Assembly: GCA_945881905.1 (NCBI GenBank)
Contig: CAMCVV010000025.1
Span: 1 to 32,239, forward strand
From: Paenibacillus alvei
GTDB lineage: Bacteria > Bacillota > Bacilli > Paenibacillales > NBRC-103111
Reading direction: 5' to 3'
Length of the DNA stretch: 32,239 bases
Shown here: positions 4,860-31,546 of the stretch, piece after piece
How positions within the stretch are numbered: the first letter of the stretch is position 1
Layout of the letters: each line of letters begins with the position of its first letter
The notes under the pieces: generated by a model
Seen by the model: only the letters and a program-made list of their open reading frames with translations
What the model was told of the DNA's origin: nothing
Database searches by the model: none
Program-made: the position numbers and the translations under genes

Positions 4860-5225
4860 TCATTTCTTGACTTTATAATGTTCATGATACAGTTTCATGA
4901 GCGCCCTCTTCTCAATCCGGGACACATACGAGCGAGAAATGCCGAGCTCCTTCGCGATCTCTCGCTGTGTGCGTTCCTCCCCACCTTGCTCCAATCCGAA
5001 TCTTCCCATGACGACTTCCTTCTCACGATCATCAAGAATAGTTAAATGTTCATAAAGTTTGACCCGCTCCATATCCAATTGGACTTGCTCGTAGATCACA
5101 TCTGCATCTGAACCCAATACATCGATCAGTGTGATTTCATTGCCTTCTTTGTCTTTGCCAATTGGATCGTGTAAGGATACATCTTTACGCGATTTCTTGA
5201 GTGAGCGGAGGTGCATGAGAATCTC
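4860..5225 (-). CDS. sigK: sigK 3' half (SpoIIIC-type): C-terminal part of sigma-K
   Basis: Encodes the C-terminal half of the late mother-cell sigma factor: [26 protein letters not shown], a region 3 linker, then region 4 with [20 protein letters not shown] and the helix-turn-helix [20 protein letters not shown]. The N-terminal half is absent here; upstream of GAGA (5225-5222) the frame runs into non-sigma sequence. A start at ATG 5315 would fuse unrelated residues, so this half is not expected to work alone. Joining the GAGA at 5225-5222 to that at 13790-13787 gives an uninterrupted frame of 340 + 362 = 702 bases (233 aa), close to B. subtilis SigK (241 aa). Confidence 0.93.
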
Positions 5226-5238
5226 GAACCTACTGTCT
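5212..5238 (-). other. Recombination (att) site at the sigK 3' half
   Basis: On the plus strand TGCATGAGAA-TCTC-GAACC. TCTC (5222-5225) is shared with the other boundary. The element-side arm, GAA-N5-TGTCT (5226-5238), pairs as an inverted repeat with AGACA-N5-TTC of the other boundary around a central TC (5224-5225), as expected for a serine-recombinase crossover dinucleotide. Confidence 0.75.
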
Positions 5239-5275
5239 AGACTAATGATGCTGAACTCGTCTGTACGATATGTGT

Positions 5276-6757
5276 TCAGAAGCTTCGAATTTCGATGGCT
5301 TGAGGATAGACCCATACTTCTTTCACCACTTGACGCATCATCACTTGCTTGTCATCTGTTGTCAGGAGCTTCTCATTCTCGTCAGCGCATTGCAAGAGGC
5401 ATTCCACTAGAGAACATGACACGACGGATGGCAAGGATAAGGAGTGAATGGCGAGCGTCTCTATCTGCGATTGAAGTATTCGTTCTTGACCGACTAACTG
5501 TTCGAATTCAGCTTGCACGAGTTCATCGGCGAGATCTTCATGAACGGTGAACAATCTGATCAGTCGTTTCTTCTGCTGTTGGATTCGCTCTAGTTGAATC
5601 TGTAGCATCATGTGTTGATCAGGCTTCGAAGTAACTTCAGGTTGTGGAGCAGATGCGATCTCTGTCGCATCAAACAACCACTGCGCAACACGATCCCAAA
5701 CTGCTTGATCAAGAAGTTCACACTTCATGGTCATTCCGCATCCTCTATGTCTAGCACCTGCTGTATTCTTTACATCTGTATATACGAATTCATCTTTGCT
5801 CCAATGCCGTCTGCGTCTTCCTGTCATCGTGTTCCCACATTCACCACAGCGCACAAGACCCGATAAGAAATAAGAATGAGAACCCGCTTGCACATGTCGT
5901 CGTTTGCATACTGCTAATAATGCTTGTGCTCGATCGAATTGCTCGATTGAGATAATTTCTGGACACTTGACAGCGATCCATTGTGATTCAGGTCGAAGTT
6001 TCATGGTGATTTTCTCTTGCGAATGACGATTAGCGAGCATGCCTTCGGTATTCCACTTGTTCTGATAAAAAGTTCCCGTATAGGTGTGATTCATCAATAT
6101 CTGGCGCACGACTTGCCGATGCCACACCCGTGCTCCGCGTTTGGTCGGTACTGCTTGTTCCGTTAAATGAAGAGCGATCCCATTCATCCCTCTGATCGAA
6201 GGGTGAGGTGAAGTGAATACATCGAATATATAGCGTACAATGGAAGCTTCGTTTTCTACAATCTTCAGTTGTGCATGGTGGCGATCGAAACTGTATCCAT
6301 AAATGTGATAATCTTTGACAACTTTGCCTTGGCGAGCTTTCTCCGTTCGTCCACGACTCATCCGTTCGTTGATTTTCGCTTTTTCGAATTCTGCGATCGC
6401 ACCGCGCATTTGATAAAACAACGAACCCTCAGGTGTTTTTTCATAAGATGCACTGACGAATCGGATGACCACTCCGCGTTTTTCCCATTCTTCTGTGATA
6501 ATCAGTTGGTTCATCAGTTTGCGTGACAGTCGATCAGGATCATAACATATGACTTCGCCGATCACCCCTTGCAAGATGTCTTGGCGAAGCTGTGTGAGTG
6601 CAGGACGATCAAGGAACTCCCCTGAGTATCCATCATCGACATAGGTTTGGATGTGTTCGCTACAAGCGATTTGGCGACACGCTCGTAACTGGTCGCTCAA
6701 AGAATGACCTTTCTTCGCTTGTTCCTCGGTCGATACTCGCGCATACAGTGCGATCAT
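5276..6757 (-). CDS. spoIVCA: Large serine recombinase, SpoIVCA-type (sigK element excisionase)
   Basis: A 493-residue protein. The N-terminal resolvase domain has the catalytic serine in ALYARVS (Ser9), the EEQ motif, YDPDRLSRK, and E-helix residues around [15 protein letters not shown]. It is followed by a recombinase domain (about 150-290), a zinc ribbon (CGECG...RGCGM, about 310-345), and a C-terminal coiled region rich in Gln/Leu (about 375-430). ATG 6757 follows AAGGAGGTG at good spacing. The gene is codirectional with sigK and its stop lies about 50 bases from the att core. In B. subtilis spoIVCA sits beside the 5' half (spoIVCB) instead, so the arrangement differs. It would be expected to be made in the mother cell, but I could not identify a sigma-E promoter. 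It could also mediate integration, as for phage serine integrases. Confidence 0.92.
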
Positions 6758-14701: not shown

Positions 14702-15090
14702 TCTACATAACGTAAGCCACTTGCATTCAGCTACGACATAAGCTCCGACATTCTTGGCTACCCCAATTGCGCCTTCATTATTGTATGCGTTTACAACTAT
14801 GGAGTCGCAATCTCTCTATTACTCTTCAAAACCACACTTCATTGATCTTACATCGCATATCGCACATCGTACATCGCATAGAATAGCGCATAGACCTTAA
14901 GCATGCTTGTTTTTGCATAAGCGCAAGGATGTCGACAATACGATCTTGTGCACGTGTCGATCGATGCATCGATATACCTCAATGACAAGATCGTGATACA
15001 ATATGCAAAATAATATTATATTCATTATAGATAACTCATCATATATAATAACAATATAATGAAATTTACATACTGAAGGAGTTGAAGTCT
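14702..15090. other. Intergenic region with dyads upstream of the oxidoreductase pair
   Basis: No gene. A simple run of CATCGCATA-like repeats (about 14848-14892) is followed by an inverted repeat, ACGATCTTG (14940-14948) and CAAGATCGT (14986-14994). Between these arms lies a perfect 14-base palindrome, ATCGATGCATCGAT (14960-14973). Then comes a very AT-rich stretch with two TATAAT copies (15044-15049, 15055-15060), probably the promoter of the next gene. Confidence 0.5.
14940..14994. promoter_or_regulatory. Nested dyads, possible operator
   Basis: The outer 9-base perfect inverted repeat encloses a 14-base perfect palindrome. There is no U-tract and the enclosed distance is 37 bases, so a protein-binding site is more likely than a terminator. 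It lies about 100 bases before the start of the Gfo/Idh/MocA gene. Confidence 0.4.
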
Positions 15091-16095
15091 ATGACCCAGC
15101 CAAAACTGAAGTGGGGCATCATGGGGTGTGCAGGTATTGCACAGGGTGCTGTGATCCCAGGCATACATGCGTCACAGACAGGTGAAGTTGTTGCGATTGC
15201 AAGTCGTCATCTAGAGAAAGCTCAACAAACTGCACAAAAATGGAATATTCCGATTGCTTATGGAAGCTACGAGGAACTTCTCGCTGATTCCCAGATTGAC
15301 GCTGTGTACATTCCACTGCCGAATCACCTTCACAAACCATGGACGATCAAAGCCGCACAAGCGGGCAAACATGTATTGTGTGAGAAACCCGCAGCTCTGA
15401 ATGCACGAGAAACTCAAGAGATGGTTATTGCTTGTCATCAAGCAGGCGTTCAATGGGCTGAAGCTTTCATGTATCGTCATCATCCACGCTATCAATTAAT
15501 GAAAGACGTGATTCGCTCTGGTGAAATCGGAACGCTACGAGGTATACATAGTAATTTCACATTTAATAGCTCATCTAATAAAGGGAACTTTCGATTTGAC
15601 CGCAGTATGGGCGGAGGGTCCATCTATGACGTCGGTGTATATCCGATCAGTGCAGCAAGATTCATTCTAGAAGAGGAACCTGAAGCCGTTACCGTGCATG
15701 CGTTATTCTCCCCTGAACACGGTGATGTCGATATGATGGCATCGGGATTAATCGAATTCCCTGATGGAATGTCTCTGACATTTGATTGTGGCATGTGGGG
15801 GTATTACCGCAATGAACTCGAAATCTTGGGAACGCAAGGAAGAATCGTCGTCCCATCTGCATACGTGGATCCCCGAGATGCTGGCAGTAACTTCTATATA
15901 CAGACAGATCAAGGAAAGCGAGACATTGAGGTACCTCAAGTCAATCAGTTCGCATTAGAAGTAGATGATCTCGCCTATGCCGTCTGGGGTCAAAAACCGC
16001 TTCACTTCTCTGCATCCGACGCTATCATGAATATGCGAGTTGTCGATGCTTGCTTACGATCCGCGAGAGAACGCTGTCGCGTTGTATTATATTAA
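15091..16095 (+). CDS. Gfo/Idh/MocA-family NAD(P)-dependent oxidoreductase
   Basis: A 334-residue dehydrogenase of sugars or cyclitols. The N-terminal Rossmann fold has GIMGCAGIAQGAVIPG, DAVYIPLPNHLH and the family motif CEKPAAL (EKP about 98-100). The C-terminal GFO_IDH_MocA domain has GGGSIYDVGVYPISAAR with the catalytic Asp-x3-Tyr-type residues. ATG 15091 is used because AAGGAG (15076-15081) precedes it by nine bases; the in-frame TTG at 15082 abuts that site and cannot use it. It is followed after 47 bases by an aldo/keto reductase gene, so the pair is probably an operon acting on the same sugar. The substrate cannot be told. Confidence 0.93.
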   Translation: MTQPKLKWGIMGCAGIAQGAVIPGIHASQTGEVVAIASRHLEKAQQTAQKWNIPIAYGSYEELLADSQIDAVYIPLPNHLHKPWTIKAAQAGKHVLCEKPAALNARETQEMVIACHQAGVQWAEAFMYRHHPRYQLMKDVIRSGEIGTLRGIHSNFTFNSSSNKGNFRFDRSMGGGSIYDVGVYPISAARFILEEEPEAVTVHALFSPEHGDVDMMASGLIEFPDGMSLTFDCGMWGYYRNELEILGTQGRIVVPSAYVDPRDAGSNFYIQTDQGKRDIEVPQVNQFALEVDDLAYAVWGQKPLHFSASDAIMNMRVVDACLRSARERCRVVLY

Positions 16096-16142
16096 TTCAT
16101 GATTCCTTACACATTCCAAGAAAGTTAGAGGTGTATCCACAG

Positions 16143-17069
16143 ATGAATTCGATCCAAATCGCAGGTGTGAACAAATCCGTAAGTCAATTGATCATGGGTA
16201 CAGACTTTTTTAACCTCAGTAATCCAGACACCGTGCATGAAATCATGGAGCTTTTTATGCAAATGGGTGGAAATACGTTAGATACTGCTCATATTTATAG
16301 TGGTGGTGAAAGTGAAGCAGCGATTGGTTTGTGGTTGGAAGCAACCCAGAAACGGAAGGATATCGTGATTCTGACCAAAGGCGCTCATCATGATCGTTCC
16401 GGACCACGTGTGAATCGCCAAGGCATATATGAGGACTTAATGGAAAGTCTAGAACGATTACGTCTTGATAGCGTAGAATTATATGGACTGCATCGTGATG
16501 ACCCCCTTACACCTGTCGGGGAAATTATGGATGCGTTGAACGAACATATCGAAGCAGGACGAATCCAAGCGATTGGTGGATCTAACTGGTCACACCAACG
16601 TTTGCAAGAAGCGAATGACTATGCCCGTCAACATGGACTCATTGGATTCAGCTTCAATAGCCCGAATCTTAGTTTAGCCAAAACGAATGAACCGTTTTGG
16701 ACAAACTGTTTGTCTGCTGATGCACACACACTCGAATGGCATACCCACACACAGATGCCTTTGCTTTCTTGGTCATCGCAAGCTAGAGGGTTCTTCTCCG
16801 ACCACGTATCGCCTAGTGATCGCACGAATGAAGATCTGGTACGCGTGTTTTACCATGAAGCGAATTGGCAACGTCGCCATCGCGCAGAACAGCTTGCTGA
16901 GCAAAAAGGTGTCAGTCGTATCCAAATTGCATTAGCGTATGTATTGAATCAGCCATTCCCTACATGTGCATTGATTGGTCCTCGTAACCAAGCCGAAATG
17001 ACTTCTTGCCAACAAGGTGCACAAATTAAATTAACGCAAGCAGAAATCTCTTGGCTCGTGGGTACGTAA
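16143..17069 (+). CDS. Aldo/keto reductase
   Basis: A 308-residue TIM-barrel NADPH-dependent reductase. The catalytic tetrad is visible: Asp47 and Tyr52 in LDTAHIYSGG, Lys79 in ILTKGAH, His117 in LYGLHRDD. GGSNWS (about 147) and the C-terminal coenzyme loop with ALIGPRNQAEM follow. ATG 16143 (MNSIQIAG) fits the family start, and AGAGGTG lies about ten bases upstream. The frame is open further upstream, overlapping the preceding gene, but that part is not family-like. Probably cotranscribed with the upstream Gfo/Idh/MocA gene. Confidence 0.92.
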   Translation: MNSIQIAGVNKSVSQLIMGTDFFNLSNPDTVHEIMELFMQMGGNTLDTAHIYSGGESEAAIGLWLEATQKRKDIVILTKGAHHDRSGPRVNRQGIYEDLMESLERLRLDSVELYGLHRDDPLTPVGEIMDALNEHIEAGRIQAIGGSNWSHQRLQEANDYARQHGLIGFSFNSPNLSLAKTNEPFWTNCLSADAHTLEWHTHTQMPLLSWSSQARGFFSDHVSPSDRTNEDLVRVFYHEANWQRRHRAEQLAEQKGVSRIQIALAYVLNQPFPTCALIGPRNQAEMTSCQQGAQIKLTQAEISWLVGT

Positions 17070-17121: not shown

Positions 17122-17591
17122 CTATTCACTTGTTGGATGATCCACAAGTCCATTCAACGGTTCAACTTCGAGAACAATGTGAGCTTCCTCATAACAGAGG
17201 TGTGCAACGTTTAAGCGTTTCAACCACTGCTTTGTGTTGGATTTCTCTAGACACTTCGAGGCGTTCATTCCCTGTTTGTGTAATGATTGCTTGGATATTG
17301 AGTTTCTTACAAGCTGCTATGGTTTCTTTCAAGTCTGCGATATAGGAGTCTCGGAAAGCTGGATCAACCAAATTAAAGATTTTTTGCGCGTGCCCGTAAT
17401 CCCTACACCGATCTTCTCTTGTACTTTCACGATTTGATCGAGGTTTCCTAGATTCCACCAAGAATCATATTCAAGACCTTGCAAACCGTGCTCTTTCACT
17501 ATGTCCAAATGAAACAACACATCTTCTTGAGGATATGCACCTATACATAAGGTGAATTTCGAGCAATTGTTTACTTGTATTCGATCAGCAT
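17122..17591 (-). pseudogene. Sugar isomerase (xylose-isomerase-like TIM barrel) pseudogene
   Basis: Read across frames on the minus strand, the sequence gives SKFTLCIGAYPQEDVLFHLD, then GLEYDSWWNLGNLD and KIGVGITG. It shifts to HAQKIFNLVDPAFRDSYIAD and KLNIQAIITQTGNE, and shifts again to AHIVLEVEPLNGLVDHP before a stop at 17122. These are hallmarks of the hydroxypyruvate isomerase / sugar phosphate isomerase-epimerase fold. At least two frame breaks (near 17390 and 17195) and loss of the last third make it non-functional. It lies 36 bases beyond the fucU-type gene on the same strand, so it was the last gene of that operon. Confidence 0.8.
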
Positions 17592-17626
17592 GTCACGATT
17601 GCGCGGACTTCACCATTGGACGAATT

Positions 17627-18058
17627 TCAGGGCTGGATGACGCCTTTTTTTAGCAATATATTGGCATAAAGCGCAGTTTCTCCGGTAGCTACAATCGCAT
17701 ACGCTTTTCTTGCGCGCTCATAAAAAGCAAATTTTTCGATGTAATCCATTTGAACCGGCTGTCCTTGGCTCTGTTCGATGATCTTCGCATATGTATCCCA
17801 AATCGGTGTCTTAACGGTGTCTCCAGGGACTACAGCCATCAATCCTACAGGCTTGGGGTCGTATGAGTCTAATGGATATAGCGCCAAGATCGCTTGCAAC
17901 AGCTCTGGGATGGGGTGTCCATCTAAGCGAATTAAGCGCTGTGCATGGCTTGCAGCTGGAAAGTTTCCATCTGCTAAGATGATTTCGTCTGTATGTCCCA
18001 TTTCCATCAAGATGCGAAGTAATTCAGGTGAGATCAACGATGAAATTCCTTTTAACAT
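17627..18058 (-). CDS. RbsD/FucU-family sugar mutarotase
   Basis: A 143-residue protein that interconverts sugar anomers, probably of L-fucose. It begins MLKGISSLISPELLRIL; EMGHTDEIILADGNFPA carries the conserved His22 and Asp/Asn of the active site. Family features near the end are EKFAFYERARKAYAIVATGE and NILLKKGVI. The start was moved to ATG 18058, because AAAGGATG lies about seven bases before it while the upstream ATG 18067 directly abuts that site. It lies 52 bases after the HPr-kinase-like gene, codirectional. No fucose isomerase or kinase is in view. Confidence 0.9.
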   Translation of the reverse strand: MLKGISSLISPELLRILMEMGHTDEIILADGNFPAASHAQRLIRLDGHPIPELLQAILALYPLDSYDPKPVGLMAVVPGDTVKTPIWDTYAKIIEQSQGQPVQMDYIEKFAFYERARKAYAIVATGETALYANILLKKGVIQP

Positions 18059-18110
18059 ATGTGACATCCTTTCTCTTACATAGGGAATATGGAGATTATA
18101 TCATTGCGAT

Positions 18111-19028
18111 TCATTGCGGTTCGTTAAACTTAAGGCGCTTCATGAAGTCTTCAACTGCACTATACCCTTGTTGTCTTAAATACCAGTTGTTCGCAGCAGC
18201 TTCGACAAGTTCTGCAACATCTCGTCCTGGTTGCAGTTGGATTTCAATCGTTGGGATATTCACATCCATATATTCTGTGAATTTGTCAGCTAATTCGAGT
18301 TCATTATTCAACTTGTTATCTTCCCACTTCGTAAGCTCGATGTCAAGTACTATCCGTGTTTCATCTTGAAATGCACTACGACCATATAAGCGTGACACAT
18401 TAATTAATCCTACACTGCGTAAAGCAAGAAATTCACGTGTTTTGCCATCGTGTGTACCTAATATCGTCTCGGGGTTGATTTTCTTTAAGACTACTACGTC
18501 ATCTGCAACTAATCGATGTCCTTTGCGAATAAGTGAATGTGCCGTTTCGCTTTTACCTACTCCTGATTTGCCGCGCAATATAATGCCAATACCTGACACA
18601 TTAACACAGACGCCATGAATGGAGATTTCTTGTGCTAATTCTTTTGCCAAATAGTTATCGCTTAAACCAATGAATTTGGAAGTAGCCATTTGCGTACGCA
18701 ATAAGGGAATATTCTCTTGCTCGCAAAATTTCGTCAAGTATTTAAGTTCATCTTGTCCTCTGGTTACCACAAAGCAAGGTGGATGGTAATTGACTACGTT
18801 CCCAATCCGTTCACTGCGTTCATCTTCATTTAATTGAAGCAAATATGTGATTTCTTTTCTACCTAGCACTTGCACATGGTTTTGTGGGAAGAATTCAAAG
18901 TATCCGACGAACTCTAGCCCCGGACGATACGTCAGTGGTTTGGTAATCAGTCGATCTACGAATTGATGACCTGCTAGTATCTCTAATTGGAACCGCTCGA
19001 TTAACTGAGCGACAGTGATTGCTTTCAT
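18111..19028 (-). CDS. hprK: HPr kinase/phosphorylase paralogue with altered signature motif
   Basis: A 305-residue homologue of the bifunctional enzyme that phosphorylates HPr on Ser46 in carbon catabolite control. The N-terminal domain has RPGLEFVGYFEFFP. The catalytic domain has SIHGVCVNVSG (His138), the P-loop GKSGVGKSE (153-161), GHRLVADD (Asp176/177) and the C-terminal IQLQPGRDVAELVEAAA. In the family signature the usual EIRGLGIIN reads ALRSVGLIN (202-210): Glu and Gly are replaced. It is followed by a mutarotase gene, not lgt/ppaX as for the housekeeping hprK of Bacillales, so it may be a second, specialised copy. ATG 19028 is preferred for ribosome spacing (AAAGGAT); ATG 19034 is possible. 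Confidence 0.88.
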   Translation of the reverse strand: MKAITVAQLIERFQLEILAGHQFVDRLITKPLTYRPGLEFVGYFEFFPQNHVQVLGRKEITYLLQLNEDERSERIGNVVNYHPPCFVVTRGQDELKYLTKFCEQENIPLLRTQMATSKFIGLSDNYLAKELAQEISIHGVCVNVSGIGIILRGKSGVGKSETAHSLIRKGHRLVADDVVVLKKINPETILGTHDGKTREFLALRSVGLINVSRLYGRSAFQDETRIVLDIELTKWEDNKLNNELELADKFTEYMDVNIPTIEIQLQPGRDVAELVEAAANNWYLRQQGYSAVEDFMKRLKFNEPQ

Positions 19029-19034
19029 GATCAT

Positions 19035-19448
19035 GTATCCTTTCTATGATTGACTAGCTGATTAGGCAAATGGTTGATTCATTATCATGAGTATTCGAGG
19101 TTTGCAAGCATTTACCTCTTATTGTACATGTGATTCTTGGAGATGTGAATGTCGGAAATGTGAATGTCGGAAATGTGAATGAGGTGCGGGTTTCTATCCT
19201 GTTGCCTCACCCACTGCAATGAGATCTAAGACATGTGCCAACACATCGAGTGGAATAAGACTTCGACGCAGAGGGTAGGTGAAATAATCTCTGTGGACAC
19301 ATGATCGAGTTACTGCGGTTTGCTACTTGCAACGAAGTGACATAGAGCGAAGTGTTCTGCCAAAAATATGGTGTATCCTTGCACCAAAATCGGATATGAT
19401 GAATTCATAGTTATGTAAACTAATATATGGACAAAGGAGGCCTACCTG
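19035..19448. other. Intergenic region between divergent genes
   Basis: No intact gene. It holds a three-copy 15-base tandem repeat (19141-19185). A minus-strand frame of about 40 codons (about 19199-19320, containing RDYFTYPLRRSLIPLDVLAH) looks protein-like but has no start and matches no family I recognise. The strong site AAAGGAGG (19433-19440) belongs to the lipid-kinase gene. Confidence 0.4.
19141..19185. repeat. 15-base tandem repeat, three copies
   Basis: The unit AAATGTGAATGTCGG occurs three times in a row: the first copy differs at one base, the third diverges at its last four bases. It is in non-coding DNA upstream of the HPr-kinase-like gene. Confidence 0.8.
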
Positions 19449-20930: not shown

Positions 20931-21644
20931 CTAAGGATGTAAAGTCACGTCTAGGGCCCATGTGCGGAAGACCTCTAGAAGTTGTGTCAAGTTGAGTGGA
21001 GCACATGATCCTTGAAACTTGAGGTCCTTCACGTAACATTGCAACCAATCCTGTTCACTATGATAGATCGACAACGCTTCGAATGAACATGCTTCTAGCT
21101 CTGTTTCTTCAATATTGATCTTCAACTTCCAACCTTTATTCCCATCAGTTGATATTTTGATTAAACCTACGTGTTCTTCCCAAGACCCATCACATTGAGA
21201 GCAAAACCACTCTTGAAGCCATTGAAGTAATAGGTGTCTATTTCTCGTATCATCTAAGTTCACGATTGACCCGGTTGACGTTACCCAGTTCTGATACGTT
21301 TGAAGGAGTTCAAACAACTTGAATGTGTCGCCTGCTGAATCAAATCTCCCATCAAATATTCTGCAAAAGTACCATTCATGTTCACTTAGGACTATATGAA
21401 TTTCTTTGAAAGGTATTGCTTCTAATGCAGTACCTTTCAGTTTAACTTCAAACCTCCACCCTGGATTAGCTTGAGTTTCAATCTTAATATCCACAATATT
21501 ACCGTCATGTTGAGATAATTGATCGGAATACCACTGTTGAAGCCAGTTCAAAGGATTCAGCCTTACCTCCAGTTGATTGGCGTACCACTGTTGAATGCGG
21601 TTCGGTTTCCAAAGTTGAAACTGGTGCTTATTCAGGAAATCCAT
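20931..21644 (-). CDS. Double Imm53-domain immunity protein, copy 3
   Basis: A 237-residue cytoplasmic protein, last of three tandem paralogues. It contains two consecutive Imm53-like domains: about 30-130 (NWLQQWYSDQL, ETQANPGWRFEVKLKGTALE, SEHEWYFCRI, FELLQTYQNWV) and about 140-235 (LQWLQEWFCSQCDGSW, STDGNKGWKLKINIEETELE, SEQDWLQCYV, APLNLTQLLEVFRTW). The first 28 residues hold a third, truncated motif (RIQQWYANQL). Imm53 proteins neutralise secreted polymorphic toxins and are recognised by these Trp-rich motifs. It differs from copies 1-2 mostly in the first domain and at the C-terminal end. Confidence 0.82.
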   Translation of the reverse strand: MDFLNKHQFQLWKPNRIQQWYANQLEVRLNPLNWLQQWYSDQLSQHDGNIVDIKIETQANPGWRFEVKLKGTALEAIPFKEIHIVLSEHEWYFCRIFDGRFDSAGDTFKLFELLQTYQNWVTSTGSIVNLDDTRNRHLLLQWLQEWFCSQCDGSWEEHVGLIKISTDGNKGWKLKINIEETELEACSFEALSIYHSEQDWLQCYVKDLKFQGSCAPLNLTQLLEVFRTWALDVTLHP

Positions 21645-21687
21645 GATTACCTCCTATAGTTAAACATATATCTTCAGGAAGAAATGA

Positions 21688-22404
21688 TCACACGGGATCT
21701 GAAGACACATATTCGACCCATGTGCGGAAGACCTCTAGAAGTTGTGTCAAGTTGAGTGGAGCACATGATCCTTGGAACTTGAGGTCCTTCACGTAACATT
21801 GTAACCAATCCTGTTCACTATGATAGATCGACAACGCTTCGAATGAACAAGCTTCTAGCTCTGTTTCTTCAATATTGATCTTCAACTTCCAACCTTGATT
21901 CCCATCGGTTGATATTTTGATATGACCTACGTGTTCTTCCCAAGACCCATCACATTGAGAGCAAAACCACTCTTGAAGCCATTGAAGTAATAGGTGTCTA
22001 TTCCTCGTGTCATCTACATTCACGATTGACCCGGTTGACGTTACCCAGTTCTGATAGGTTTGAAGAATTTCAAAAAACTTGAACGTGTCGCCTGATCCAC
22101 TAAATACCCCTTCAAGCACTCTGCAAAAGAACCATTCATGTTCACTGCGGTCTATATGAATTTCTTTGAAAGGTACTTCTTCTAAAGCAGTTTCTTTCAG
22201 TTTAATTGTTAACCACCACCCAGGATTAGCTTGAGTTTCAATATTAATATACACAATATTACCGTCATGTTGGCATAGTTGATCGGAGTACCACTGTTGA
22301 AGCCAGTTCAATGGATTCAGCCTTACCTCCAGTTGATTGGCGTACCACTGTTGAATGCGGTTCGGTTTCCATAGTTGAAACTGGTGCTTATTCAGGAAAT
22401 CCAT
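21688..22404 (-). CDS. Double Imm53-domain immunity protein, copy 2
   Basis: A 238-residue paralogue of its neighbours with the same two-domain plan. Domain 2 differs from copy 3 at only a few positions (for example HVGHIKISTDGNQGW), while domain 1 carries replacements such as YINIETQANPGWWLTIKLKE and CRVLEGVFSGSG. ATG 22404 follows TAGGAGGCAATC. The 43-base gap to copy 3 is nearly identical in sequence to the gap before this gene, showing that each duplication included the spacer. Confidence 0.82.
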   Translation of the reverse strand: MDFLNKHQFQLWKPNRIQQWYANQLEVRLNPLNWLQQWYSDQLCQHDGNIVYINIETQANPGWWLTIKLKETALEEVPFKEIHIDRSEHEWFFCRVLEGVFSGSGDTFKFFEILQTYQNWVTSTGSIVNVDDTRNRHLLLQWLQEWFCSQCDGSWEEHVGHIKISTDGNQGWKLKINIEETELEACSFEALSIYHSEQDWLQCYVKDLKFQGSCAPLNLTQLLEVFRTWVEYVSSDPV

Positions 22405-22447
22405 GATTGCCTCCTAAAGTTAAACATATATCTTCAGGAAGAAATGA

Positions 22448-23161
22448 TCACACGGGATCTGAAGACACATCTTCGACCCATGTGCGGAAGACCTCTAGAA
22501 GTTGTGTCAAGTTGAGTGGAGCACATGATCCTTGGAACTTGAGATCCTTCACGTAACATTGCAACCAATCCTGATCACTATGATGGATAGACAACGCTTC
22601 AAATGAACAAGTTTTTAATTCTGTTTCTTCAATATCGATCATCAGCGTCCAACCTTTATTCCCATCAGTTAATATCGTGATTCCATAAGCTTCTTCCCAA
22701 GACCCATCACATTGAGAGCAAAACCATTCCTGGAGCCACTGAAGTAATAGGTGTCTATTTCTCGTATCATCTACGTTCACGATTACCCCTGTTGACGTTA
22801 CCCAGTTCTGATAGGTTTGAAGAATTTCAAAAAACTTGAACGTATCGCCTGATCCAATAAATTCCCCTTCACGTACTCTGTAAAAGAACCATTCATGGTC
22901 ACTGCGGTCTATTTTAATTTCTTTGAAAGATACTGCTTCTAATGCAGTACCTTTCAGGTTAATTTCCATCCGCCACGCTGGATTAGCCTGAGTTTCAATA
23001 CTAATATCCACAGAATTACCGCCATGATGGCATAGTTGATCGGAGTACCACTGTTGAAGCCAGTTCAAAGGATTCAACCTTACCTCCAGTTGATTAGCGT
23101 ACCACTGTTGAATGCGGTTCGGTCTCCAAAGTTGAAACTGGTGCTTATTCAGGAAATCCAT
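22448..23161 (-). CDS. Double Imm53-domain immunity protein, copy 1 (toxin-adjacent)
   Basis: A 237-residue paralogue, first of the array and 15 bases after the toxin stop, with TAGGAGGC before ATG 23161, so it is cotranscribed with the toxin. It is the most divergent copy, with YGITILTDGNKGWTLMIDIE in domain 2 and SIETQANPAWRMEINLKG in domain 1. As the gene nearest the toxin, it is the likeliest cognate immunity. Its second domain (CDGSWEEAYGITI) is closest to the canonical Imm53 sequence. Confidence 0.84.
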   Translation of the reverse strand: MDFLNKHQFQLWRPNRIQQWYANQLEVRLNPLNWLQQWYSDQLCHHGGNSVDISIETQANPAWRMEINLKGTALEAVSFKEIKIDRSDHEWFFYRVREGEFIGSGDTFKFFEILQTYQNWVTSTGVIVNVDDTRNRHLLLQWLQEWFCSQCDGSWEEAYGITILTDGNKGWTLMIDIEETELKTCSFEALSIHHSDQDWLQCYVKDLKFQGSCAPLNLTQLLEVFRTWVEDVSSDPV

Positions 23162-23176
23162 GATTGCCTCCTAAAG

Positions 23177-24142
23177 TTATGGTTTTCGTGGCATTTCGTC
23201 GGGTCTTGGATGTCTAACGCCACCAGGAACAGTTCTATCATGCACATGAGGTACGCCAAATTTTTCGCCTGTTGCTTTATTTTCATGAGTCCTGTTATTT
23301 TCAGCTCTGCCATGATATGCATTACCGGGTGCAAAGGGATTTGGGTTTTGATTTGTAGGTTTGTTAAATGCCTGCCAATGAGTGACTTCTTGCGTAATCG
23401 GATCTCGCTTGATTACTGTATGATTACCAGTAGCAGTGGAGTCATACTTCATATTGTTTATCCCGCGTCCTGAATTAGCAACTTGCTTGGCACTCGTGGC
23501 GTTATCCGCTATTGCTTTAACACCTTTAGCGGCATAAGACCCAGGAACAAAAGGGATAGCGGTTGCTGCTGCATCCCATGCCATGAATAAACCATTGGTT
23601 AATGTGGGTTTCTTGTTGTACTCATATATACTATGTCCTAAGCTAGCAGCGTCAAAGACGGTTTCTAACGCTCGTTTGCTTCGTATTGAAGGGTTCTGTT
23701 CATCAGATGGTGTTGCATCTGCAAGATCTGTTAGAACTTCTTCCTCAGTTACACGTTCTTCCTCAGTTACAAGTTCTTCTTCAGTTACAAGATGATTCGT
23801 TACTTCAATTTCTGGAGCAGGAACAGAGGCTACCTCAGGATTAAGAATTTGAAACAAATTGATACAATCAAAAAGTTTCGATAAGTCGAGTAAGTCGTCT
23901 AGCTCTGCAGGCGATAAAGATGCAAGGTCTTCTAATTGCTGTTCGACTGATTGTTCTACTTGCTGTTCTACTTGTTGTGCTACTGATTGTTTGACTGATT
24001 GTTCGACTGATTGTTCTACTGGTTGTGCTACTTGCTGTGCTACTGGAGCTTGATCCGTCATCCCGAAGATGGCTTGAGTGGGGATCATCATCGTAGCGAG
24101 TAACATGGTCACGATGATTTTACTGAATAATTGGGTAAACAT
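23177..24142 (-). CDS. Secreted polymorphic toxin-like protein
   Basis: A 321-residue protein. Residues 1-30 form a Sec signal peptide (IIVTMLLATMMIPTQAIFG). Residues 33-72 are Gln/Val/Ser-rich short repeats, and residues 115-135 contain three VTEEE units. A hydrophobic Gly/Ala pre-toxin-like segment (FMAWDAAATAIPFVPGSYAA) leads to the C-terminal domain: GNHTVIKRDPITQEVTHW, NPFAPGNAYHGRAENN, PHVHDRTVPGGVRHPRPDEM. His-rich PHVHD with GGVR resembles toxins labelled polymorphic toxin type 24, a predicted nuclease; I hold that label loosely. GGAGG lies eight bases before ATG. Three Imm53 genes follow at once, supporting a toxin role. Unusually short for a contact-type toxin, with no LXG, RHS or WXG domain. 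Confidence 0.75.
   Translation of the reverse strand: MFTQLFSKIIVTMLLATMMIPTQAIFGMTDQAPVAQQVAQPVEQSVEQSVKQSVAQQVEQQVEQSVEQQLEDLASLSPAELDDLLDLSKLFDCINLFQILNPEVASVPAPEIEVTNHLVTEEELVTEEERVTEEEVLTDLADATPSDEQNPSIRSKRALETVFDAASLGHSIYEYNKKPTLTNGLFMAWDAAATAIPFVPGSYAAKGVKAIADNATSAKQVANSGRGINNMKYDSTATGNHTVIKRDPITQEVTHWQAFNKPTNQNPNPFAPGNAYHGRAENNRTHENKATGEKFGVPHVHDRTVPGGVRHPRPDEMPRKP
23735..23792 (-). repeat. 18-base tandem repeat coding (L/R)VTEEE units
   Basis: Three copies of an 18-base unit encode VTEEEL, VTEEER, VTEEEV in the toxin gene, in an acidic linker. The copies differ by single bases. Confidence 0.75.
23930..24052 (-). repeat. 12-base-period repeat coding Val-Glu-Gln-Ser units
   Basis: About nine degenerate four-residue units (VEQS, VKQS, VAQQ, VEQQ) follow the toxin signal peptide. 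The 12-base period is visible in the DNA, so copy number may vary between strains. Confidence 0.7.
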
Positions 24143-24771: not shown

Positions 24772-27700
24772 TCAAACTTTACCACCCACGCCTCTAAACT
24801 TCTCAACAATCGCAGCAATTTTTTGGAAAACACTCTGTTTTTTAGTTAAGTATTCAGGATTGATAACGCTCATTTTAGGCAGAATCCCGTTAAGTTCCGT
24901 ACCATTTTCACTAGCATACTCTCTTTTTAATGAAATCAATATATACCTTTTTGCTGCTACTTCATTAAGTTTTTCCGTATTAATCAACTCTTCTACTTCA
25001 CGTTTTTGCTCAATTTGGGCAAATGAAAAGAATGCATCAATAATACTTGCTTTATCTTGAATCTTGTCTAAGTCTGTTTGGTTGATGAAGTCGACTACTA
25101 AGCTTTCTTTTGCTCGGTTCCCTACACTAGAACGAATTAAACGACGCACCTCATCAACCAATAAACTTTTATCTTTTACATTTTTGTTTTTTTCAAATAT
25201 CAATTCAAGAATGTAATCTAGATTGATTTCTTGTGATTTGAGAAGCTCTACCTCAAAGACAATATCATCCCAATCCATAGAGGGATTGTCTTTTTCTTGC
25301 CCAGTATTTTCACGACGAAGCCATTCGCGAATATCATTATATGAAGAACGATAATCCTGAATGGTTCTTTCTTCTGGTACTCGAATTTCTTGCATCGCTG
25401 CTATATCTTCATCTGTCACATAATAAGTTGTTTTGAAATTTTCCTTTGCTTCAGGATCAGTCATATCTACCGATTGTAAAGCTTTTAAACCTGAGAATTC
25501 ATCATAGTTCTGCAAGATGTGTTCAATACGCAGATATTCACCAAAGAGTTTAACAAAATCTTTTTTATCCTTTTCAGTATCGATCTCATCCATATGAGGA
25601 AACCGTTCCGTTAACTCTTTTACGACCTCTACGTATCCACGACGAGCTTCACCGGTTGCCACTTCAGTGAATCCTTCCATATATGCATTATAGCTTTTTT
25701 CTAGCACCACATTTTTAGTGTTCTTATCTCCAAATAGCGTAATGGCGTCTATGGTTGCTTGTTCCAAATTTCTGAATGTCACAATATTGCCAAAGGTTTT
25801 CGTCGAATCATAAATACGATTTGTTCGAGAAAAAGCTTGAATTAAACCATGAAACCTCAGATGTTTATCAACAAATAATGTATTTAAGGTAGGCGCATCA
25901 AAACCCGTTAGAAACATACCTACAACAATCAACAAATCAATTTCTTTGTTTTTGACTCGTTCCGCGAGGTTGCCATAATAATTTTGGAATTCTTTGCTCT
26001 CTACACCATAATTGGCTTTAAACATAGCATTATAGTCTTGAATCGCCATAGTCAAGAACTCCTTGGCACTGCTATCCATTGCTGAGGGTTCAAACGTTTC
26101 ATCTTGAATTTCACCTATCGCATGTTGCTCTTCATTAGCAGCATAGGAGAATATGGTAGCAATCTTAAGGGGTCGATTACTTTCCTTTTGTAAATGATTT
26201 AATGATTCGTAGTAGAGCTTGGCTGCGTCAACACTACTCACAGCAAACATGGCATTAAATCCTTTTCCATTCGCAAGTAGGCGATGTGTTTTTGCTCTAT
26301 ACTGATTAAGAATGTATTGAGAAATCTCTTTGATCCGTTCAGGATGAAGTAAAGCTTCTTTAATTTCTGCTGCAGATAGCTTCTTCTCGTCCTGTTCTGC
26401 TTCAACCGATTTGAACTTGGGACGCACATCGATATAATCCACTTTGAACTTTAACACTTTCTCATCTCGAATGGCATCGGTAATGACATATGAATGCAGC
26501 TCTCGACCAAAGACAGTCGCAGTGGTGTCCGAACCTAACGCATTTTCTGTAAAAATAGGCGTACCTGTAAATCCAAATGGATAGAACTTCTTAAACTTTT
26601 TCTTGATATTTTTTTGAGCTTCTCCAAATTGTGAACGGTGCGCTTCATCAAAAATAAATACGACTTGCTTATGATAAATAGCTAGATCTGTTTCGCTTTT
26701 CATGAGGTTGTTCAGCTTTTGAATCGTCGTCACAATAATTTTATTATCATTTTTTTCAATGTTATGCTTCAATCCTGCAGTATTCTCTGAACCATTCACA
26801 CTATCAGGAGAGAATCGCTGATATTCTTTCATCGTCTGATGATCTAGATCTTTCCGATCTACAACAAAGAATACTTTATCGATAAAATCCAGTTCCGTAG
26901 CCAAGCGAGCTGCTTTAAAGCTCGTCAGGGTTTTCCCTGAACCCGTGGTATGCCAAATATATCCGCCACTTTCAAGGGTACTCCATTGTTTTGCTTGGTA
27001 GGTACTCTTGATTTTCCATAATATTCTTTCTGTAGCGGCAATTTGATATGGACGCATAACCAGCAGATGATCGCTCACATCAAACACGGAATATTTCAGG
27101 AGTACATTCAATAACGTATCTTTCTGAAAAAATGTAGCAGTGAAATCTTTTAGATCTTTAATCAGGATATTATCCGCTTTGGCCCAGTTCATCGTAAAAT
27201 CATAACTGTTCTTATCCCGTTTTGTCGTATTCGCAAAATAACGGCTATCGGTACCATTAGAGATCACGAATATCTGTAGATACTTATATAGAGAGTTTTC
27301 CGAATTGAAGCTTTCTTTACTGTACCTGTGAACCTGATTGAAGGCTTCTCGAATCGCAATCCCACGCTTTTTGAGCTCCACTTGTAAGAGTGGTAAGCCA
27401 TTGACTAAGATCGTAACATCATATCGATTAGATTGCGTTCCTTGTTGTTCGAATTGGGATATGACCTGCACTTTATTACTCACCATATTCTTTTTGTCTA
27501 CGAGGTAAATGTTCTGAATACGTCCATCATCAAAAACAAAATCATAAACATAATTGTCGTGAATTTTACGGGTTTTATCGATGTAATTATCACTTGGTTT
27601 ATCCAAAAACTCCTGACAGAATCTCATCCATTCCGCATCTGAGAATTGCACATGATTAAGTAATTGCAGCTGCACACGAACATTAGCAAGCAACTGTTCA

Positions 27701-27870
27701 GGAGTGGTTATACGGGGTAGATGTTCATAGCCTTGATTGATTAGATCTTGAATGAGTTCGCGTTCTAAATTAGCTTCTGTCTGATAGCCAACCCCTTGTT
27801 CTACGATCTTGGTATATTTATCTAGAACGATAAAGTTATTTGATTCTGCGATGGGTTTATACTCGATCAT
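24772..27870 (-). CDS. hsdR: Type I restriction enzyme R (HsdR) subunit
   Basis: A 1,032-residue motor-nuclease subunit that translocates and cuts unmodified DNA in complex with M2S. The N-terminal PD-(D/E)xK nuclease is visible in [21 protein letters not shown] (about 150-170). The superfamily 2 helicase has Walker A TTGSGKT (about 310), [21 protein letters not shown], and motifs V-VI near [13 protein letters not shown] and QAFSRTNR. The C-terminal helical part (about 800-1032) contacts the methylase. Length and sequence style match the type IC (EcoR124-like) group. Its ATG overlaps the hsdS stop by four bases. Intact as far as can be seen. Confidence 0.95.
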
Positions 27871-29078
27871 TCATTTCCCTCCTCTTTGGGAAAGCTAAGG
27901 AGCTTGTTACGGTAGTATTCGTATTGTTTTTGACGCAACTTGATTTCACGAGGTAACCCCTCGGTGATTGAAGTGGTCCAGGCATCGAATTTATCTAAGA
28001 TAGAGACGATGCGGGCTTGTTCTTGAAGGGGGGGGATGGGGATTTTATATGCTTTTATAATTCCAGCATTCAAGTCTCCTCTTGCACCTTGCCCAAGGTT
28101 TTTTATATATTCGTACTGACTGCTAACCCAATGAAACACATATCTATAATTGGCTTTATTTGCGTTAATTTCTAAACATAGACAGTGTTGATTTGTTGTA
28201 AGTTGAATTTTATTTATTGCAGATCGACCTGCAGTAGCACCAGAAATTGCTATGATCACGCAGTTTTCTGGAACCCATTTCACTGCAGTTTTTTTTAATG
28301 CGCTTTCTGTTATTTTTATCTCTGTTTCATATATATCTACAAAACGCACTTCTTGTGTTCTTAACCAAGGAATACTCCCGTTATTGTAATAACCCGCACT
28401 ATTTGCAAGTGGTGTTGCGCCTGAATATGATTTAATTATTATGTCACTCAGCGAACCCATCGGCACTCCCTCGTCAAAAGTCAACAACTGATCGCGGTAA
28501 TAAGTGTATTGCTTTTTACGAGCTGTAAGCTCTGCTGTAAGCTCTGCTGTAAGCTCTGTGAAGGTGTCCAAGATACGGACGATTTCGTTTTGGATGTGAA
28601 GGGGGGGGATGGGGATTATGAATGTTCGTAGAGCTTTCAATCCCAAGTTTTTGATTGTTGAACCTGTTTTTTGAATTTCAAAATATTTTTTAGAAAAATC
28701 TGTTTGTAAGAAATAAAAAAGGTATTTTGAATAGAGTTCGGATGATTTAATATTAAAAAAGGCAACAGATTTCCCAAGTACAATTTTTTCATTATTAAAT
28801 AATGAAACGCTCCCAATGGTGCCGTTGATAGACAAAAAAACAGTGTCTTTAACTGTAAAAACAATCCCATATTTTTTAAACATCGAATCATCCACTTTTT
28901 TTGTTTTGTCATTATAAACAATTACTCCATTATCTAGATTATTTCCATTTATGAACACATATCCCCCATTATCATCATATATTGGAGTTCCATGTAAACC
29001 GTCTCCAATTACACACAAATCACGCAACGTCTTCCACTCCACCTCAACCCCATCCAGCAATTTCTCCATAATGTCCAT
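27867..29078 (-). CDS. hsdS: Type I restriction specificity (HsdS) subunit
   Basis: A 403-residue DNA-recognition subunit with two target-recognition domains, each followed by a conserved helical spacer. TRD1 is about 15-150, then [17 protein letters not shown] and the central spacer with ELTA repeats and [16 protein letters not shown] (about 165-200). TRD2 is about 205-335, then [17 protein letters not shown] and [15 protein letters not shown]. The two spacers are the type IC pattern. TRD sequences are not known to me, so the target cannot be predicted. ATG 29078 lies three bases after the fic stop; an in-frame ATG at 29069 is an alternative. Confidence 0.94.
28522..28557 (-). repeat. 12-base tandem repeat (x3) in hsdS coding ELTA
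   Basis: Three perfect consecutive copies of GCTGTAAGCTCT (plus strand) encode [12 protein letters not shown] in the central spacer of HsdS. In EcoR124I versus EcoR124II, two or three copies of the equivalent TAEL unit set the spacing of the recognition site by one base. Confidence 0.9.
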
Positions 29079-29080
29079 AG

Positions 29081-29682
29081 TTAAACCTCATCCGTCTTGA
29101 ATTCACTATATCCCTCATAGTAATAACTGACATCTATCCCTTTCATAAATAAATCACGGTTATCAATGTCAGGGGTAAGGGCTTGTTTCAGGAAATATTT
29201 AATCTCTACATCTTGAACAACACTTCGTCGCATAGCGGATAGATACTCCTCTTTGTCTACAAGATTCCAATCGATCACCTGTGTAATCTCTTGTTTGAGT
29301 ATAAGGTCAAGCCATATCCGAGTAGCTCGTCCATTCCCTTCACGAACAGGGTGAGCAATGTTCATCTCCACATATTTCTCAATGATTTGATCAAAGGTCG
29401 TTTGAGGCATTTGATCAATATGCGTGAGTGAAGCCTCCAGATACATCACAGGAGCAAAGCGGAAATCTCCTTTGGACATATGGACCGTTCTCATCTTTCC
29501 GGCAAAGTCATATATATCTTCAAATAAATAATTGTGAATGTAGGCCAGTCCCTTATAAGTTCCTACTTGTACCTTGGCAATATCTCCAGAGTCAAACAGC
29601 TGTTTGGCTTTTTGTTTGCTTATTTTCTCTTCTGCTTTTGAGAGTTCGATCTGATTGGTAATATTCAATTTATTATCGATCA

Positions 29683-29686
<4 letters not shown>
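29081..29686 (-). CDS. Fic-domain protein with C-terminal inhibitory motif (class III-like)
   Basis: A 201-residue protein whose Fic active loop is [12 protein letters not shown] (His112-Arg123). This is the catalytic core for AMP transfer (HxFx(D/E)GNGRxxR), with Val in place of the usual Phe at position three. Upstream are [20 protein letters not shown] and FAPV, the beta-flap and helix region. At the C-terminus S187-YYY-E191-G192 fits the (S/T)xxxE(G/N) inhibitory motif, placed C-terminally as in class III Fic proteins, so activity is probably self-restrained. It is encoded inside the restriction operon, overlapping hsdM by four bases and three bases before hsdS. Whether it modifies the restriction enzyme, the host or something else is unknown. 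Confidence 0.92.
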
Positions 29687-31230
<1,544 letters not shown>

Positions 31231-31546
31231 TGGTATACCTCCAATTATGAGTATGAGCACTCTCGGAAACTCCAAAACTCCGAGATTGATCTGTTTTTTA
31301 TTCTACTATTTCAACCAAATATACTTGAACATGAAGTGAAACTTACCGCGAGGTCCTTACCTACATACTGTTCCTAGACCTGCTATTGGGTTTAGAATAT
31401 GTCCTTCTCCGCACGGATGTTCTTCTACACGTAAATGATTGGGATTCTCAATATATCCAACATTATCCTGAAGCTCTGTTACATGATGATCAGGTATAAA
31501 GACCTGAGATTTTTATTGATATGCATACGTAGACAGCTGTTCATTG
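31231..31546. other. Region upstream of hsdM without a gene
   Basis: No gene is visible; the hsdM promoter should be here. I find no strong -35/-10 pair. Confidence 0.3.

Follow-up and report, generated by a model that had tools for sequence, protein, structure and literature searches.

Does a second HPr kinase homologue with an altered family signature represent a degenerate copy, an ordinary duplicate or an enzyme with a function of its own? The question is raised by a gene, here called hprK2, on a 32,239-nucleotide stretch of the Paenibacillus alvei contig CAMCVV010000025.1 (assembly GCA_945881905.1), to which we refer as the window. The source genome is 2.40 Mb in size and 99.6% complete. 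To address the question, we combined profile searches, genome comparisons, phylogeny and promoter scans.

The gene and its surroundings in the window

The original prediction of an HPr kinase homologue was correct in coordinates and strand (Table 1), and the encoded protein is full-length, matching NCBIfam TIGR00679 with 342.5 bits (cut-off 240) in a profile search and containing both PF02603 and PF07475, so that the N- and C-domains are kept. Two in-frame start codons are available, the ATG given in Table 1 (MKAITV...) and one at 19034, from which the minus-strand reading frame (18111-19034) would give 307 aa; the former is the better start because of the AAAGGA upstream of it. By sequence, the nearest solved structures are PDB 1ko7, 1knx and 1jb1, the HprK of S. 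xylosus, M. pneumoniae and L. casei, respectively (PMC9399212, PMC9138534), and the alignment to 1ko7 is full-length (phmmer E 1e-58). An AlphaFold model of the monomer was of low confidence (mean pLDDT 61.6) and no conclusion rests on it.

Numbering of the C-domain coincides with that of L. casei and E. faecalis (P-loop 155-162, His140, Asp178/179). The claimed retention of the P-loop, the histidine and the Asp pair is borne out by GKSGVGKS at 155-162, His140 (residue 138 when counted from the later ATG) and Asp178-Asp179. Likewise, where ALRS-GLIN had been read in place of EIRG-GIIN, the protein has A204-L-R-S-V-G-L-I-N212 (ALRSVGLIN) against the canonical EIRGxGIIN.

Table 1 Positions of hprK2, its upstream elements and other features of the window
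Feature	Position	Strand	Details
hprK2 (divergent HprK paralogue)	18111..19028	-	305 aa from ATG at 19028
RBS-like AAAGGA of hprK2	19038..19043	-	9 nt before ATG at 19028; read from sequence
Sigma-H-type promoter-like element AGAGGTAAA-N10-CCTCGAATAC	19091..19119	-	91 nt upstream of hprK2 start codon; matrix scan
FucU-type L-fucose mutarotase gene	17627..18067	-	43 nt downstream of hprK2, same strand; profile match
Xylose-isomerase-like TIM-barrel gene remnant	17125..17592	-	split over three frames; weak Pfam match
Gfo/Idh dehydrogenase and aldo-keto reductase pair	15082..17069	+	
cre-like match	14782		away from hprK2
Three tandem genes with Imm53 immunity domain	20931..23161	-	about 237 aa each; spacing 757-760 nt
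ORF beside the Imm53 genes	23177..24142		no Pfam match
Type I restriction-modification set (R, S, M)	24772..31275	-	complete
PDC-S04-type gene	29081..29686		between S and M
Large serine-recombinase-like ORF	5276..6757	-	judged by sequence reading
Sigma-factor-like ORF	4860..5315		151 aa; adjoins the recombinase-like ORF

The sugar mutarotase named as a neighbour is a real FucU, scoring 150.9 bits against NF011949 (cut-off 141). The isomerase pseudogene is a plausible reading of the TIM-barrel remnant, whose match to PF01261 is weak (E 0.0098) and confined to one of its three pieces. The hint that these sugar genes explain hprK2 was not borne out, because in other genomes hprK2 is a solitary gene whose location varies: no FucU homologue was found in the flanks of 112 further HprK2 loci, and among the neighbours listed for them, which differ from locus to locus, no family recurred apart from one gene pair. 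With mechanical gene calling, a same-strand ORF lay within 60 nt upstream at 18 of 106 loci, and hprK2 is mostly a stand-alone gene. The Gfo/Idh and aldo-keto reductase pair recurs, at 59-69% identity, at two of the 112 loci, about 3.6 kb from HprK2 in L076 and adjacent to it in L225, and an operon link to hprK2 was rejected on that count. Elsewhere in the window, the three Imm53 genes are 75-95% identical over sampled blocks, and the ORF beside them resembles a polymorphic-toxin type protein.

A conserved paralogue subfamily beside canonical HprK

Exactly one further PF07475 match was found in the genome. It lies on contig C43, adjoins lgt, has the signature LEIRGVGIIN and is 40% identical to the window HprK2. 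The original prediction had pointed to a canonical hprK next to lgt as the gene to look for, and with its discovery hprK2 is not the only copy; the remark that the neighbours of hprK2 are unlike the usual lgt context also holds, with lgt sitting by the other gene. Together with the residue replacements found throughout the clade, this argues for a second copy with probably altered activity or substrate, as had been proposed.

For comparison we assembled 113 HprK2 proteins (the best 80 loci of the search, every one of the 22 copies from beyond the order, a further 10 from within the order or family, and the window) and a hand-picked set of 29 canonical proteins, or HprK1 (20 from the family list, eight from the class list and the genome's own copy), which is not all that exist. 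A maximum-likelihood tree of 82 proteins, comprising 53 of the HprK2 proteins thinned by locus number and the 29 canonical ones, placed all HprK2 on one side of a 100/100 branch and all HprK1 on the other, with long branches flagged by the tree program. The phylogeny of the paralogue group, suggested as a check, thus gives HprK2 as its own clade, separated by a fully supported branch. Within the set of 113, the main clade K2a has 104 sequences including the window, and its sister group K2b has nine (L223-L231). HprK2 is therefore a real, conserved and old paralogue subfamily of HPr kinase. It occurs alongside canonical HprK and either split from it before the compared families diverged or spread among them. 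Our searches of open-licence PMC papers listed no paper describing this clade. The window protein departs from the 95%-conserved positions of K2a at three sites only, and is therefore not decaying; the genome's canonical HprK departs from the corresponding canonical positions at two.

Published work on HprK names His140, Lys161, Asp179 and Arg245 as active-site residues and Ser162 and Glu204 as Mg2+ ligands, with residues 203-212 used in both reactions and 266-271 in dephosphorylation (PMC9399212). HPr is held by two subunits, the second of which supplies Arg245 and the C-terminal helix (PMC9399212), and the V267F mutant of L. casei HprK takes the kinase conformation (PMC9138534). All 113 HprK2 proteins retain the P-loop 155-162 as well as His140, Lys161, Ser162, Asp178, Asp179, Arg206 and Gly209. 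Glu204, in contrast, is found in 29 of 29 HprK1 and in no HprK2 (A in 105, S in 4, H in 3, Q in 1), and the same is true of Arg245 (E in 57, D in 46, L in 4, A in 3, and Q, S and G in one each), so that the charge at 245 is reversed in 103 of 113. In the window protein the flexible-loop motif YDRLG, which contains Arg245, reads NNELE.

Further differences are widespread but not universal. Gly207 is replaced by Ser in 104 of 113, with K2b keeping Gly, and the dephosphorylation loop PVRPGR has become QLQPGR in the main clade and the window (Q266 in 100, L267 in 101 and Q268 in 104 of the 113). The nine K2b members keep P(V/I)RPGR but lose Glu204 and Arg245, and those two losses are therefore common to the whole clade. 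Leu198/Ile199 are mostly Lys/Thr in HprK2, and the tail past residue 301 has a median length of four residues compared with 12 in canonical proteins. At 38 of the 51 positions that are near-invariant in both groups the residue is the same. The signature had been called degenerate, a description that does not fit: ALRSxGL(I/V)N is a conserved alternative (A204 in 105 and S207 in 104 of 113) and a hallmark of the HprK2 clade.

HprK2 is present in 86 of 104 genomes of the same family, as tallied by hand from the score table, with 296 to 529 bits apart from the genome's own copy. The 18 genomes without it are G002, G003, G004, G013, G017, G028, G043, G055, G057-G061, G078, G087-G089 and G102, of which G004, G013 and G078 fall short of 90% completeness; a stop interrupts the gene of G035, and the copies of G025 and G068 are incomplete. 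In a sample of 398 genomes from across the class, HprK2 occurs in 34: the source genome, 15 of the 36 genomes belonging to the sister family f2, whose genus g24 has it in none of 16, and 18 of 360 elsewhere. Scores in these 398 genomes are bimodal, with HprK2 at 325-482 bits (684 for the own copy) and canonical proteins at most at 248. At least two HprK matches occur in 85 of the 86 HprK2-bearing family genomes, the sole exception being G006 with an assembly that is 68% complete, and in all 34 of the class; an HprK match of any kind occurs in 389 of the 398. Several genomes lacking HprK2 are far larger than the 2.4-Mb source genome, and its retention in the latter therefore suggests that it is of some use to the host.

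Each of two genomes, G252 and G273, carries a K2a copy together with two K2b copies and so has three HprK2-type genes (L214, L215, L223, L224, L226, L227). Phage records matched HprK2 at no more than 37% identity and are unannotated, while plasmid matches comprised one from Paenibacillus (66.7%), one from Priestia megaterium (47%) and 13 weaker, canonical-like ones.

A predicted sigma-H promoter and candidate substrates

The sigma-H consensus of B. subtilis is of the type RNAGGRAWW-N10/11-NGTNGAATAW. Within 200 nt upstream of HprK2, the pattern AGGNA-N16/17-GAAT occurred at 40 of 113 loci, with a sharp spacing peak, compared with 25 of 1677 control upstreams, which were taken from the remaining ORFs that mechanical gene calling gave at these loci. 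Because the spacing of the pattern was set from the very upstreams in which the 40 were counted, the weight of the promoter rests on a leave-lineage-out test and on spo0A and spoVG as controls. In this test, close relatives of the locus being scored were left out when the matrix was trained. At a threshold of 12.4, which 1% of controls passed, 47 of 113 HprK2 upstreams scored higher, in 23 of 67 protein clusters. These were 42 of the best 80 loci (the element is missing at the other 38), four of the 10 further order or family loci, all four in family f2, and the window, which was barely over with 12.6; among the copies outside the order there were none (0/13 other K2a, 0/9 K2b).

With the full matrix, in which the window site was part of the training, that site scored 15.1 and was the best on both strands, the next reaching 11.8. 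The same matrix gave 19.2 for a site 85 nt before spo0A and 22.2 for one just before spoVG of the same genome. Upstream of the canonical hprK there was no sigma-H-type site, nor was there any over the threshold on either strand in the 20 kb around it. In B. subtilis, the Ps promoter of spo0A is SigH-dependent (PMC3084206), and the SigH-controlled genes of C. difficile include spo0A and spoVG, with printed SigH promoters of the same form (PMC7438776). The source genome has both sigH and spo0A. Given the element, the positive controls and the presence of sigH, we predict sigma-H control of hprK2 in much of the order. The single cre-like match in the window is a number expected by chance; allowing one mismatch, cre-like sequences were found upstream of 31 of 113 HprK2 genes compared with 11.2 in simple shuffles, although the loci are not independent.

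Only two proteins of the HPr type are encoded in the genome. One, whose gene follows whiA where contig C43 ends, is an HPr with His15 and Ser46; the other is an HPr-like protein (L004:347-589, contig C78) in which the His15 motif is absent and KSILG is present. The latter was found in 103 of 104 family genomes (G075 gave a weak match only) and in all 36 genomes of family f2; beyond the order, most genomes with HprK2 have nothing closely similar to it. KSILG is invariant in 49 aligned loci whether HprK2 is present or absent. As a dedicated partner of HprK2 the protein was rejected, since its presence regardless of HprK2 makes co-occurrence non-discriminating; judged by eye, the number of HPr paralogues per genome showed no visible relation to HprK2 either. 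The His15-less protein may be a target of either kinase, HprK1 or HprK2.

Possible functions and relation to known systems

We tentatively prefer the explanation that HprK2 is an ATP-using, kinase-like HprK paralogue with a shifted target, working off the HPr(Ser46) kinase/phosphorylase cycle and expressed from a sigma-H promoter as growth ceases; in our judgement this is nearly as apt to prove right as wrong. With the P-loop, His140 and Asp178/179 intact, the protein would still bind ATP and transfer phosphate, but the lack of the metal ligand Glu204, of Arg245 as a clamp on HPr, of the customary loop at 266-271 and of a complete C-terminal helix would put an end to the normal HPr(Ser46) cycle. 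It would thus act mainly as a kinase, perhaps on the His15-less HPr-like protein or on HPr itself, and in Paenibacillaceae the sigma-H promoter would time its production to when growth ends or sporulation begins. For the many soil-dwelling relatives of Paenibacillus that carry HprK2 in addition to HPr kinase, the normal sugar-sensing enzyme, this suggests that HprK2 has a separate task as cells enter stationary phase or sporulate. Somewhat less probable is the formulation that a widespread, sigma-H-controlled second enzyme of the HPr kinase type in Bacilli, its active site rewired by the loss of Glu204 and an acidic residue in place of Arg245, either has a target other than HPr Ser46 or turns the HprK1 hexamer into a different regulator, and so couples carbon or energy state to entry into stationary phase or sporulation.

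Counting against a shifted target, TIGR00679 labels the window protein an equivalog of HPr(Ser) kinase/phosphatase. The score over that cut-off, the complete retention of the P-loop and Asp residues, and a genome with no candidate targets beyond HPr and one HPr-like protein would all suit an ordinary second HPr(Ser46) kinase/phosphorylase that differs chiefly in the timing of its expression and tolerates the replaced residues. However, an acidic residue at 245 in 103 of 113 proteins and the loss of Glu204 in every one of them concern positions described as active-site and Mg2+ ligands (PMC9399212), and we consider this explanation unlikely. Despite its match, the protein is not safely filed as an HPr(Ser) kinase/phosphorylase because two defining residues that were tested are not there.

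Of similarly low probability is a regulatory subunit, whereby HprK2 would enter mixed hexamers with HprK1 and, as growth ends, upset or skew the balance of HprK1 between kinase and phosphorylase. Both Arg245 and the C-terminal helix work on a neighbouring subunit, in trans; HPr is bound across two subunits, the second of which contributes Arg245 (PMC9399212). HprK2 itself has Glu/Asp245, a short helix and both domains. The co-occurrence of at least two HprK matches in 85 of 86 family and 34 of 34 class genomes agrees with such a role but is trivial if canonical HprK is near universal (389 of 398 genomes have an HprK match), and just 38 of the 51 near-invariant positions share the same residue. 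A pseudoenzyme or nucleotide sensor that binds ATP or another phosphate ligand and signals through protein contacts, without phosphotransfer, would explain why a metal ligand and the catalytic Arg are lost in all HprK2; we regard it as the least probable, since a non-catalytic sensor would hardly need the Asp179, His140 and Lys161 that are invariant in all 113.

The HprK2 clade means that HprK annotation and models of catabolite repression are incomplete for Paenibacillaceae and some other Bacilli, with databases hiding these proteins under the HPr(Ser) kinase/phosphatase name. It also represents a natural experiment on the roles of Glu204 and Arg245, and suggests a way, amenable to testing, in which carbon sensing may be tied at the molecular level to the sigma-H/Spo0A stationary-phase transition.

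With the known HprK/P (TIGR00679; PDB 1ko7, 1knx, 1jb1/1kkl), HprK2 shares the two domains, the P-loop, His140, Lys161, Ser162, Asp178/179 and Arg206, and differs in the replacement of Glu204 and Arg245 in all members and of Gly207, the 266-271 loop and the end of the C-terminal helix in most. Unlike the canonical gene, hprK2 is not located by lgt and is an extra copy in addition to the canonical one. Crh is a His15-less HPr paralogue of B. subtilis. The HPr-like protein resembles it in lacking the His15 motif and keeping the KSILG serine motif, and is perhaps its counterpart; over 64 residues it shares about 31% identity with the HPr from these genomes, and its gene is not near hprK2. The passage on ptsK in a 2008 account of 222 genomes notes a second copy only for Oceanobacillus iheyensis, and reports no analysis of its function, residues or promoter (PMC2405797). 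That protein, oiehyk2, is likewise an extra HprK in a Bacilli genome and is placed apart from the Bacilli cluster in the HprK tree (PMC2405797).
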